In this document: one piece after another, positions 3,185 to 8,419 of the stretch
How the letters are laid out: each line of letters starts with the position of its first letter
How positions within the stretch are numbered: the stretch's first letter is position 1
From: Richelia intracellularis HH01
GTDB taxonomy: Bacteria; Cyanobacteriota; Cyanobacteriia; Cyanobacteriales; Nostocaceae
Length of the DNA stretch: 64,000 nt
Assembly: GCF_000350105.1 (NCBI RefSeq)
Contig: NZ_CAIY01000012.1
Span: 13 to 64,012 of the forward strand
Reading direction: 5' to 3'
Program-made: the position numbers and the translations under genes
Notes under the pieces: generated by a model
Databases searched by the model: none
What the model saw: only the letters and a program-made list of their open reading frames with translations
What the model was told of the DNA's origin: nothing

Positions 3185-4690
3185 GTGTACAAATGGATAT
3201 TGCCAAGTCTACAAGAAATTATAATCACTAATCAGTCGACTACAATTGAGTGCTCACCAGCAAAAGCTCATCAGCAGTGGCAGATCAGTCTTGCAGCAAC
3301 AGAACAAATGCTTTTAGATAATCCTTCTAAAGATAGAGATACCAAAGATGATACTGTTCCTCCATTGGTATTTGCAGGACCAGCTTTGGTATTTAGTCAT
3401 CCTCAGCTCTCTCCCCGTCTGCAAACTGTGACTTTTACATCCAAACCATTTAACCCCTTGGCACTAATGCCATTTCAGATGCCTCATGCCGATGCTGATT
3501 TAGAGCCAGTTATATCTCTGAGAGAGTCAGTATTACCCCTACTACCTGTAGATCCTCTAGCAGATGAGCAGTTTTGCTTAATCTTCACAGAACAACTTAG
3601 ACTACTACTAGTTTTAACACCTGCAGAGAATGGTAGTTGCTATTTTATACTTTCTTTTGAGCCAGAGACCATACAACAAGTTTGGCAAACATTAGGGGCA
3701 AGGATAATGCTCACTAATCCAAATTTGCAAAAAAATTTGGAAATATTAGTCAGTAATTACAGTCAAGATCCTCCAGAGATTAGTCAGGTTTTACGGTTTA
3801 GTCAATGGTTACTGACCTGTATACCGGAACCATTAACAGAGAATATAAATAAAGAAAAGGGTGATAAAGAATCCCTTATATCTGATTCTCTCTATAATGT
3901 TAGGGGAACAGAGGTATCAGATAACAAGACCGAAAATACCTACCGTGCTAGTAATAAACAAGATATCGAACTCTTGCAAGCGTTTGCTCATGAGGTTCGT
4001 ACCCCACTGTCAACAATTCGGACTATGACACGCTTATTACTGAGGCAGAGTAATTTATCTGAAAGTGTAATTAGGCGTCTCAAAATTATTGATCATGAAT
4101 GCACTGAACAAATTGATCGTATGGAATTATTATTTCAAGCAGCAGAACTAGAAACCTGCAATATTGATAGAAGCCTCACAAAAACACCTCTTACTGCTAC
4201 ATCTTTGGATCAAGTCTTACATCAAAATATTCCTCGTTGGCAAGAAACTGCTAGTAGACGCAACCTCACTTTGGAAGTTGTGTTACCTCAACAATTGCCA
4301 ACAGTAGTAAGTAACCCTATAATGTTGGATAGAATGTTGACTGGTGTAATGGAAAATATCATCCGCAACCTACCCTCTGGAAGTGGAATTCAGGTACATG
4401 TAATTCCAGCAGGTAGTCAGTTGAAGTTGCAATTATTACCCCTACCTCAGCCTAAAACACAGGATTGCAAGTCCCCATGTACCCCGCCTATACGTAGGGC
4501 ATTAGGCCAATTGCTAACTTTTCAACCTGAAACAGGAACAATTAGTCTCAATCTTTCTGCAACCAAACATCTATTCCAGGAAATTGGTGGAAAGCTTATT
4601 GTTCGACAACGTCCACAGCATGGGGAAATATTAACCATATTTTTGCCCTTGGAAATCAAAGAAAAGCAAACTTTAAGAATAAATACTTAG
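3185..4690 (+). CDS. histidine-kinase-like protein with intact H-box but degenerate ATP-binding domain
   Basis: This predicted 501-residue protein starts with GTG. Residues 1-240 form an uncharacterised N-terminal region without a recognisable sensor domain or obvious membrane segment. A HisKA dimerisation region follows, with the H-box FAHEVRTPLSTIR; the phospho-accepting histidine is residue 269. A region shaped like HATPase_c comes next, with a weak N-box (MENIIRNLPSGSG), but the DxGxGx (G1) and GxGLGL (G2) ATP-lid motifs are absent. The corresponding stretch is Pro- and Gln-rich (LPLPQPKTQD) before a normal-looking kinase C-terminus (LIVRQRPQHGEILTIFLP). It may not bind ATP by itself. It converges with the neighbouring minus-strand gene 65 bp away, which shows the opposite defect. 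No response regulator is adjacent. Confidence 0.75.
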   Translation: MYKWILPSLQEIIITNQSTTIECSPAKAHQQWQISLAATEQMLLDNPSKDRDTKDDTVPPLVFAGPALVFSHPQLSPRLQTVTFTSKPFNPLALMPFQMPHADADLEPVISLRESVLPLLPVDPLADEQFCLIFTEQLRLLLVLTPAENGSCYFILSFEPETIQQVWQTLGARIMLTNPNLQKNLEILVSNYSQDPPEISQVLRFSQWLLTCIPEPLTENINKEKGDKESLISDSLYNVRGTEVSDNKTENTYRASNKQDIELLQAFAHEVRTPLSTIRTMTRLLLRQSNLSESVIRRLKIIDHECTEQIDRMELLFQAAELETCNIDRSLTKTPLTATSLDQVLHQNIPRWQETASRRNLTLEVVLPQQLPTVVSNPIMLDRMLTGVMENIIRNLPSGSGIQVHVIPAGSQLKLQLLPLPQPKTQDCKSPCTPPIRRALGQLLTFQPETGTISLNLSATKHLFQEIGGKLIVRQRPQHGEILTIFLPLEIKEKQTLRINT

Positions 4691-4755
4691 CACACAAGGC
4701 TATAAAACAAAAAGTAATTTTTACATTGCGAGCCCTATAAAATAATGGGCAATGA

Positions 4756-6150
4756 TTAATTTTCCTCTATGATCTTTGGCAAGTTTACAGTAAATGTAGA
4801 GCCCTCCATTAATTTACTTGTTACTGTAATGGAACCACCACCAACTTGTAATAATTGCTGTACCACAGTTAAACCTAAGCCAGCTCCTCCAGGATCTTCT
4901 GTGGTTGATAGATGCACCTGGTAAAAGCTATCAAAGATCTTCGATAATTCATTCTCCGCAATACCAATGCCTGTATCCTTGACCTCTAATTGCACATAAT
5001 TACCTTTTACCCTTGTTCTTACCCAAACTTGTCCACCATGAGAGGAAAATTTAATACTATTGGCAATTAAATTAATTAATATCTGTCTAAGTCCACCACT
5101 AACACATTGTACTGCAGGCAATTCATTTGGTATTGTGTAAGCCAGCATAATACCTTTTTCTTGAGCGAGAGGTTGATAAGTACTAATAACACCGGGAACA
5201 ACATCCGAAATATGAACTGATTCTAAATCAGTTTCATATAAATTCTTCTCTATTTGCACTAACTCTCTCACTCCATTAATCAATGCATTTTGGCGATCAC
5301 ACTGGCTATTAATCATTTGCAAATAGCGTTGACGCTGCGTTGCTTTCATAGCTGAAGAGTTTAACAAACTCAATGCGGTTTTCATATGTGTCAAGGGGGT
5401 AAGAAGTTGTTGGCAGACAAGGTTTAAGTATTCATACCTGCTAGTTAAAGAATTTTGAAGATTTTGATTTTGCTTTTGGAGTTTAGTAACTTTTTGACTA
5501 ATAACTTGACGACTAATTTCATCTTGCCTTTTAATTTGTTTGATCAATAACTTATTAATTAATTCTAGTTTAGGCGTTTCAGAAAGAATAAAGTCTCTGG
5601 AGATATTTTCTGGAGCAATTGCGTCATAAATACCATCTACCACCCGTTGAATAATTCTACTTTTAAAACAACAGGTTCCTAATAAAAAAGCCGTTTTCTT
5701 TTGACTGATATTGTTAAATTCAGGCTCTATTAATTTCTTTTCTGGACGATATGCAATAACTACACTGTATAATTCTGGTGATATGATAACAAAAAAATAT
5801 TCCCTCTTTAGTTTGCTATCTGGTTCGAGTTGTAAGTATAGGTGGTGTAATGATGAATCTTGATTTATCTCTGCAGAAACTTCTAAATTATTGTTACTTA
5901 GATGGTAACTATATATGTTAGGAATAGTATTCAATGCAGTATGATAGCGAACAATTTCAGACTGCCAAATACTTTCTGGAGGTAATTTTACCCATAAGGT
6001 AGCTGTAATTTTATATTCAATTAGTAAGTCAATTTGTGACATTACTAGTGATAGTAATGTTGCAGAAGTTAAAGGGAATACCTCAGGAGAATTCGGACCC
6101 TCCAAAGCTAATCTGTAAAAAGAAATATCCTGAGTTGGAGAAACATTCAT
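4756..6150 (-). CDS. DICT-domain sensor kinase-like protein lacking the phospho-accepting histidine
   Basis: This predicted 464-residue cytoplasmic protein has an N-terminal DICT-type sensory region (about 20-150), a coiled coil (about 205-240), a HisKA-like dimerisation region and a well-preserved HATPase_c domain. The N-box includes LRQILINLIANSIKFS (N364), the G1 box is DTGIGI (392-397) and the G2 box is GGAGLGL (421-427). The H-box position reads CQQLLTPLTHMK, so Gln247 replaces the conserved His. It should bind ATP but cannot autophosphorylate in the usual way. DICT domains are known mainly from cyanobacterial and other bacterial signalling proteins, often linked to light or GGDEF/EAL modules. 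The gene lies downstream of murE, separated by a strong hairpin. The DICT assignment comes from general resemblance, not a domain search. Confidence 0.75.
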   Translation of the reverse strand: MNVSPTQDISFYRLALEGPNSPEVFPLTSATLLSLVMSQIDLLIEYKITATLWVKLPPESIWQSEIVRYHTALNTIPNIYSYHLSNNNLEVSAEINQDSSLHHLYLQLEPDSKLKREYFFVIISPELYSVVIAYRPEKKLIEPEFNNISQKKTAFLLGTCCFKSRIIQRVVDGIYDAIAPENISRDFILSETPKLELINKLLIKQIKRQDEISRQVISQKVTKLQKQNQNLQNSLTSRYEYLNLVCQQLLTPLTHMKTALSLLNSSAMKATQRQRYLQMINSQCDRQNALINGVRELVQIEKNLYETDLESVHISDVVPGVISTYQPLAQEKGIMLAYTIPNELPAVQCVSGGLRQILINLIANSIKFSSHGGQVWVRTRVKGNYVQLEVKDTGIGIAENELSKIFDSFYQVHLSTTEDPGGAGLGLTVVQQLLQVGGGSITVTSKLMEGSTFTVNLPKIIEEN

Positions 6151-6570: not shown

Positions 6571-8073
6571 CTATATCTTAGACAAATTTCTATTAGCTAG
6601 TGCTTGCCGTGCATGCTCTCTGTCATCAAAGTATATTTTTTCTGTGCCTAAAATTTGGTAATTTTCATGACCTTTACCAGCGATTATAACTCCGTCACCC
6701 GATTGTGCTTGAATAATAGCTTTGTGAATTGCTTGGGAGCGATCACTAATCACTATAGGGCTCCTTATATTTGGTATCCCATCAACAATATTCTGCATAA
6801 TCTTCTCTGGATCTTCTGTGCGGGGATTGTCGGAGGTTATAATAACTATGTCGGCTAATTCAGCGGCTATTTTTCCCATTTTTGGGCGTTTATTCTGATC
6901 ACGATCACCCCCACACCCAAACACGCAAATCATCTGACGAGGAATGAAAGGACGAGAGGCTTTAAGTAAATTCTCTAAACCATCTGGAGTATGGGCATAA
7001 TCCACAATTACGCTAATATCTTGATCTGGACTAATTTGCAGTTTCTCCATTCTCCCTGGTACTCCAGGAAAACTCCTGATTGCTTCTGATACTATTTGTA
7101 AATCGACCCCTAGATGTAAAACTGCTCCTACTGCTGCTAGTAAATTCTCTAGGTTATACTGACCGACCAAAGGATAAACAAAAGTAATATCCCCTTTAGG
7201 TGTATGTAATATACCACTAACTTTATTAGGTTTATATATTAAATTGCTCATATATAAATCGGCGCTACTACTATGAGTGCTGTAACTCCAAGTATTATCG
7301 TTACCTATACTTTTAATAAGGCGGCAACCATAGGTATCATCGATGTTAATAATTGCCCTACCCTGCAAATAATTGGGGTAAAATAGTAGAGATTTTGCCC
7401 TAAAATAATCTTCCATGTTCTCATGAAAATCCAGGTGATCCTGGGTAAGGTTACTAAAGACACTGGCTTGGAACTTACAGCCTAAAATCCTCCCCTGTGC
7501 TAAAGCATGGGAACTAACTTCCATTACACCGTATTTATTGCCAGCATTTACCGCTGCAGCTAACTGTGATTGTAATTCTATCGCAAACGGAGTGGTATGA
7601 ACTGCTATTTGCTCAAATCCTTGCCAGCGATGATATAAGGTCCCCATTAAGGTAATAGGTTGTTGGGCTTGCTTGAAAAAATGCTCTATTAAATGGGTAA
7701 TAGTGGTTTTCCCATTGGTTCCTGTAACGCCGATTAGTTTTAACTTTTCGGCTGGGTAATCATAAAAAACAGTAGCTAATTGGCCACAGATTTGATTCAT
7801 ATTTTGTGCTACAACAACCACACAATCTTTAGGTTGTGGGGGATTATTTTCTGCAGCTTGGGGGGAAATTATTGCCGCAATTGCGCCAGATGCAATAGCA
7901 TCATGCCAAAAATATCCACCATCAACCTTGCTTCCCGGCACCCCAATAAATACATCTCCCGCACTACAAGTATGAGAGTTAGTCTTTAAGCCTCTCACCT
8001 CAATATCTAAAGCTGGATGTATAGATAATTGAGTAATCCCTTCTATAGTGGCTAGTAAATCCCGCAATCTCAT
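6571..8073 (-). CDS. murE: UDP-N-acetylmuramoyl-L-alanyl-D-glutamate--2,6-diaminopimelate ligase
   Basis: MurE adds meso-diaminopimelate to UDP-MurNAc-L-Ala-D-Glu in the cytoplasmic stage of peptidoglycan synthesis. The 500-residue protein has the usual three Mur-ligase domains: an N-terminal UDP-binding region (ending with FIGVPGSKVDG), the central ATPase with P-loop GTNGKTT (118-124), and a C-terminal domain with DNPRTEDP near residue 415. DNPR marks specificity for diaminopimelate rather than lysine. This agrees with lysA elsewhere in the window, which consumes the same intermediate. Length is normal. The glutaredoxin-like gene lies 73 bp upstream on the same strand, so the two may be cotranscribed, and a strong hairpin follows. 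Confidence 0.95.
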   Translation of the reverse strand: MRLRDLLATIEGITQLSIHPALDIEVRGLKTNSHTCSAGDVFIGVPGSKVDGGYFWHDAIASGAIAAIISPQAAENNPPQPKDCVVVVAQNMNQICGQLATVFYDYPAEKLKLIGVTGTNGKTTITHLIEHFFKQAQQPITLMGTLYHRWQGFEQIAVHTTPFAIELQSQLAAAVNAGNKYGVMEVSSHALAQGRILGCKFQASVFSNLTQDHLDFHENMEDYFRAKSLLFYPNYLQGRAIINIDDTYGCRLIKSIGNDNTWSYSTHSSSADLYMSNLIYKPNKVSGILHTPKGDITFVYPLVGQYNLENLLAAVGAVLHLGVDLQIVSEAIRSFPGVPGRMEKLQISPDQDISVIVDYAHTPDGLENLLKASRPFIPRQMICVFGCGGDRDQNKRPKMGKIAAELADIVIITSDNPRTEDPEKIMQNIVDGIPNIRSPIVISDRSQAIHKAIIQAQSGDGVIIAGKGHENYQILGTEKIYFDDREHARQALANRNLSKI

Positions 8074-8146: not shown

Positions 8147-8419
8147 TTAGATATAAGTTTTTAAAATTTGCTCAAATTTTTGCAATGTTATCCGGGGAGA
8201 AGGACGAGGGATAGGTCTTAAATCGCTTCCATCTTCACTACGATAAAATAATGTGGGTACTTCATACTCATAAGCTATAAACCAATCATCACAGGTAGTA
8301 ATGTCACGAACTTCTAACTTAAGAGAAGGTATATTGCCAGTTTGAATAATTGTTTCCAACTTTTCCTGTAACCCCTCACACAAATGGCACCCAGGCTTAC
8401 TGTATAAAATTAGTTGCAT
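8147..8419 (-). CDS. glutaredoxin-like small protein (DUF836 type)
   Basis: This 90-residue thioredoxin-fold protein begins MQLILYSKPGCHLCE. The CHLC dithiol is at residues 11-14, and the cis-proline region reads YEVPTLFY. Members of this family are small, poorly characterised cytoplasmic redox proteins. It precedes murE by 73 bp on the same strand, and a shared transcript is plausible. Family-level identification is firm; the redox partner is unknown. Confidence 0.85.
   Translation of the reverse strand: MQLILYSKPGCHLCEGLQEKLETIIQTGNIPSLKLEVRDITTCDDWFIAYEYEVPTLFYRSEDGSDLRPIPRPSPRITLQKFEQILKTYI

Follow-up and report, generated by a model that had tools for sequence, protein, structure and literature searches.

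Convergent DICT-type kinase-like genes with opposite lesions in Richelia intracellularis: an acceptor histidine in one paralogue and an ATP site in the other

Two kinase-like genes converge across a 65 bp gap in the window (the whole 64,000 nt stretch of Richelia intracellularis HH01 DNA analysed here), one with the acceptor histidine of a HisKA kinase and the other with the ATP site. Do they form a split kinase in which the second phosphorylates the first in trans, as proposed in a preliminary description, or does each have a role of its own? Protein A (3185..4690, plus strand; 501 aa, with a conserved GTG start) comprises a cryptic DICT-like domain, a DHp domain with the histidine and a degenerate ATPase-like domain. 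Protein B (4756..6150, minus strand; 464 aa) is arranged DICT-HisKA(Gln)-HATPase_c. The motif readings of the preliminary description are confirmed for both proteins, together with coordinates and strands: A keeps His269 in FAHEVRTPL and is missing the lid glycine motifs, and B keeps DTGIGI and GGAGLGL with Gln247 in CQQLLTPL. Thus, the acceptor histidine of an active HisKA kinase is found in A, the N, G1 and G2 ATP-site motifs are not, and neither protein combines the two features. The window has a low coding density and belongs to a genome of 3.24 Mb.

The His269 codon of A (3989..3991, plus strand) lies in an H-box with the H-E-x-x-T-P DHp motif. T273, the threonine at His+4, is invariant, and the DHp surface beyond the histidine is strongly conserved (T277, I278, T280). 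In Pfam, HisKA scores 26.7 bits, just under the cut-off of 26.9, and HATPase_c reaches E=0.21 at best. Residues 336-490 (4190..4654, plus strand) are assigned to an ATPase-like fold that has neither a G1 nor a G2 box from this HATPase_c match, the alignment of the lid region and fold matches to the catalytic domains of histidine kinases. Replacing the ATP lid at residues 440-456 (4502..4552, plus strand) is a signature of the A family, LGQLLTFQPETGTISLN, conserved in the alignments; the Cyanobacteriia-wide comparison gives the lid region a signature of its own, GQLLMFQPETGSLSLN, and the 81 Nostocales copies read, nearly invariantly, PPIRKALGQLLMFQPETGTISLN. The N-box asparagine is retained in Nostocales (MEN) and replaced in deeper lineages (MEK, IER, VDR, VEY). 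Judged from these motifs, A probably does not bind ATP in the standard mode; motifs are relied on because the A model has low confidence over its C-terminal third.

Conservation of A was followed among the Nostocales and across the class. Scanning species genomes, we obtained 80 Nostocales loci with A, at 54-70% identity. The histidine is present in 81/81 Nostocales copies and in 49/49 rows of the class-wide alignment, and a G1 or G2 box in 0/81 and none, respectively; neither the Nostocales copies nor the class-wide sample included an A homologue with G boxes. The missing motifs of A are therefore family-wide, a point that the preliminary description had left to homologue alignment. Using profile A1 at E<=1e-40, A was detected in 184 of 386 phylum genomes, that is in 184 of the 186 sampled Cyanobacteriia, nearly always as one copy and also in small genomes of 1.6-1.9 Mb; the genomes sampled were not drawn independently of one another. 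The sole sampled Cyanobacteriia without A, G085 and G241, both belong to family f23, and a looser search of the two returned just generic kinases. Both retain an intact DICT kinase.

B is recognised throughout by Pfam, with DICT at 8.7e-27 (residues 10-135; 5746..6123, minus strand), HisKA at 9.5e-8 and HATPase_c at 3e-27. The ATP-site residues N364, D392, G394, G396, G422, G424 and G426 are invariant in the B alignment, including those of the G1 box DTGIGI (4960..4977, minus strand) and the G2 box GGAGLGL (4870..4890, minus strand). At the acceptor position (codon 5410..5412, minus strand), glutamine occurs in 30 of the 31 copies of the Nostocales set and histidine in one, from L043; of the 59 class-wide rows, 45 have Gln, 9 Arg, 2 Glu and 3 His, so that 56/59 have Q, R or E instead of the acceptor. 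The threonine at His+4 is missing in several B members. The H-box of the window copy (5395-5415) reads CQQLLTPL against a family consensus of CQELRTPL, with E248Q and R250L falling at near-invariant sites, and these extra changes hint at relaxed constraint in this reduced genome.

Absence of the acceptor is thus a property of the B family, as the preliminary description had asked, with the exception of L043/L104 and L253. These are the only His-bearing B homologues; they are nested among Gln copies and one base apart from them (CAC in L043/L104 and CAT in L253; CAG in relatives and CAA in L254), and for this reason they look like reversions. B forms a single clade (support 99), and the acceptor states need seven changes over the whole tree. 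The histidine of B was lost a single time, at the root of the clade, and about two apparent Gln-to-His reversions came later. The homologues with regained histidine (L043:11036-12466, L104 and L253:5771-7468) would resemble complete kinases. Raw dN/dS against nearest relatives is about 0.1 for A and for B, with dS near saturation, and both are therefore still under purifying selection. On these alignments the missing motifs of A and of B are ancient, strongly conserved, family-wide states.

The distribution of B differs from that of A. Called with profile A2 at E<=1e-60, B was found in at least 46 of the 386 genomes; counts vary with the profile cut-off, and 46 is a lower bound because additional copies came up when 77 class genomes were searched with Pfam DICT. 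All 46 B-bearing genomes also carry A, but most A genomes are without B. Co-occurrence as the preliminary description envisaged it therefore holds in one direction only, and the obligate co-occurrence expected of a split kinase is absent. Since A is near-universal, the presence of A beside B is uninformative on partnership. The same counts (46 against 184/186) imply that whatever phosphate A carries has, in the majority of cyanobacteria, another source than B.

Comparison of the A and B profiles covers the DICT, DHp and ATPase regions with a probability of 99.7 and E=5e-27. Kinase domains alone could yield such a whole-length match, and the N-terminal parts were therefore compared separately. 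In Pfam, DICT (PF10069) does not match the window copy of A and gives weak matches in 5 of 52 A homologues. Profile-profile comparison places a DICT-like domain, below the Pfam cut-off, at residues 1-180 of A (3185..3724, plus strand; best supported at 111-178). The N-terminus of A matches the DICT domain of B at E=1.5e-7 and that of an independent kinase family at E=5.1e-5; for reference, the true DICT families of B and the independent kinases match each other at E=6e-7. Controls gave 0.057 for reversed B, 0.11 for the best of 40 column shuffles and at least 0.19 for unrelated proteins. The strand-helix order of the A and B AlphaFold models, which were built on narrow alignments, agrees over the N-terminal region. 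The profile matches and this agreement together indicate that A has a cryptic DICT domain and that the two proteins are full-length paralogues: A and B are distantly related, ancient DICT-HisKA-HATPase paralogues with opposite lesions. Direct duplication of one into the other was considered and not adopted, as A, B and the intact DICT kinases each form one clade and long branches meet, so that the tree does not fix the order of duplication. Elsewhere in the window's genome (L221:1489-2813), a DICT protein is followed by an overlapping ORF of HD-type look in another frame, a possible frameshift or pseudogene.

The reading that we favour, at a probability of roughly 0.48, is that A carries phosphate on its histidine or acts as a phosphatase, in either case without using ATP itself, and that B is an optional ATP-binding accessory or modulator. 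A would be a dedicated ChpT- or Spo0B-like protein, itself independent of ATP, exchanging with a putative, widely conserved response regulator from which it would take or remove phosphate; the catalytic domain of another kinase could be an alternative source. In B-bearing lineages, B would act as a His-less ATP-binding accessory that tunes A or the putative response regulator of A, and the two might pair as a DHp heterodimer. A phosphatase role is considered because the threonine at His+4, which HisKA phosphatases need (PMC3510030), is invariant in A. A scaffold role independent of phosphorylation is an alternative for A, but the invariance of its histidine disfavours it.

Additional information can be drawn from the genomic surroundings. 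In a count made by hand from genome coordinates, 19 of the 46 B-bearing genomes, from eight families, have the two genes no more than 5 kb apart and in every case convergent; three further neighbour cases in a second sample (G388, G398 and G412) add two families. The pair considered in the preliminary description thus recurs in ten families, but at 14 of 20 loci with A far off, B lies downstream of murE and grx on the same strand. In the window, murE, the usual upstream same-strand neighbour of B, is at 6571..8073 and grx, a small glutaredoxin-like gene that usually adjoins murE, at 8147..8419, both on the minus strand. A in turn adjoins murE at loci that have no B: L074 (27 bp), L080 (79 bp) and L211. 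murE is a more constant neighbour of B than A is. Because B tracks murE-grx without A and A adjoins murE without B, the closeness of A and B is in part owed to the synteny that they share around murE. Ancestrally the order was apparently A> <B <murE <grx, with repeated loss of B or relocation of A. In picocyanobacterial and similar genomes (L127, L129, L130, L197 and L198), A directly follows rodA in a cluster mrp-rodA-A-psaD-trpE, a link to genes of cell shape and of photosystem I. As a lead only, both neighbourhoods, murE and rodA, link A to cell-wall genes.

This synteny is the ground for a second reading, rather unlikely in our estimate, in which B binds ATP and acts on a response regulator as a phosphatase or allosteric modulator, in the manner of a His-less HisKA protein or of DivL, is functionally unlinked to A, and owes its proximity to A to the murE locus. 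The position of B downstream of murE-grx with or without A, and the loci with A beside murE and no B, are as it would predict. Furthermore, HisKA phosphatase activity is not strictly dependent on the conserved histidine (PMC3510030), and the B model matches DivL (4q20). Against it stand the B members that have lost the threonine at His+4, which that activity needs. A-B adjacency in L259, where murE lies outside the stretch read, also speaks against it and for a partnership of A and B.

Such a partnership would be closest in a natural split kinase, in which A and B would pair as a heterodimer wherever a lineage has both, and the ATP domain of B would phosphorylate His269 of A in trans. We consider this unlikely, although the lesions are exactly complementary, ancient and selected, and fall in paralogues. 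It draws further on the recurrent convergent adjacency, on the presence of A in every B genome of the profile survey and on known heterodimers of histidine kinases, HrrS-ChrS (PMC9491836) and RetS-GacS (7n0e). A mirror-tree distance correlation is higher for A-B given murE (0.68) than for A-murE given B (0.51); it is uncalibrated and not relied on. However, most cyanobacteria keep A and have no B, the gene that B follows is murE and not A, convergent genes lack co-transcription, and histidine was regained in about two B lineages. As most A genomes are without B, a kinase split between the two cannot be the general mechanism of A. What is supported of the original proposal is the complementarity, age and family-wide spread of the lesions, with purifying selection on both genes, a convergent neighbourhood recurring in ten families and full-length paralogy. 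The fuller version, a natural two-gene kinase with histidine and ATP site divided between DICT kinase paralogues and A serving as a universal ATP-independent phospho-histidine hub where B is absent, seems more doubtful still. Local decay of both genes, to which the small genome and the E248Q and R250L changes of B might point, is very improbable and ruled out largely by the family-wide occurrence of both lesions in free-living relatives, together with open frames and the low raw dN/dS.

Whichever role is correct, A is a near-universal, single-copy cyanobacterial protein with an invariant phospho-acceptor histidine and no ATP site, which annotation pipelines rate under their histidine kinase thresholds. 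No description of the A family was found in a search of the open-access literature. A census of thermophilic cyanobacteria took as kinases proteins with HisKA and HATPase, or with HisKA alone beside another two-component gene (PMC9953108); these criteria would usually pass over A. If A moves phosphate, as the favoured phospho-carrier reading has it, it would provide a missing link to the many cyanobacterial kinases and regulators that are orphans; were B its donor, the pair would be a natural split kinase.

Among known systems, the solved structures nearest to A by sequence are ordinary kinase cores: ZraS, 7z8n (a "histidine kinase" entry, which is GacS) and RetS. Fold matches of the A model, whose C-terminus is weak (mean pLDDT 61), are led by RetS, through its kinase region and the RetS-GacS heterodimer crystal 7n0e, and by ZraS. 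RetS, in contrast to A, is a membrane hybrid protein, and homology between them is confined to the kinase domains as far as seen. The cyanobacterial DICT-CHASE6_C-GAF kinases, with a copy in the window's genome at G000:C3, share DICT, HisKA and HATPase with A and B but retain both histidine and ATP site and form a separate clade. CdgK (PMC9927289) was checked and is unrelated. The B model matches HK853 and DivL, and B resembles DivL, a Caulobacter pseudo-histidine kinase with tyrosine for histidine, in having its acceptor replaced within a retained kinase fold. B differs in its glutamine, its DICT sensor and an invariant ATP site; the ATPase domain of DivL is dispensable, and DivL-CckA and ChrS-HrrS are precedents for partnerships of pseudo-kinases (PMC9491836).

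A DHp domain with histidine beside an ATPase-like domain that has no ATP site, the feature of ChpT and Spo0B, is found in A, with the C-terminal fold at low confidence. The ATPase-like domain of Spo0B has no kinase activity. Spo0B of Bacillus is a two-subunit, four-helix-bundle histidine carrier, and ChpT of Caulobacter has a class-I histidine kinase fold, a histidine and an altered lid, and neither binds ATP nor autophosphorylates (PMC3433190). The likeness of A to Spo0B is one of architecture and not of sequence comparison, and A is cyanobacterial and has a sensor domain. With ChpT, A shares the DHp histidine, the kinase fold, an altered lid and group-wide conservation, and presumably the non-use of ATP; it differs in its N-terminal DICT-like sensor, canonical HisKA H-box and other lid replacement, and its phosphotransfer is a prediction. 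Of 52 A members, just 2 match HPTransfase (PF10090, the family of the ChpT C-terminus), at E 0.062 at best, which does not make A a member. Without being filed in that family, A may work like the ChpT and Spo0B phosphotransferases.
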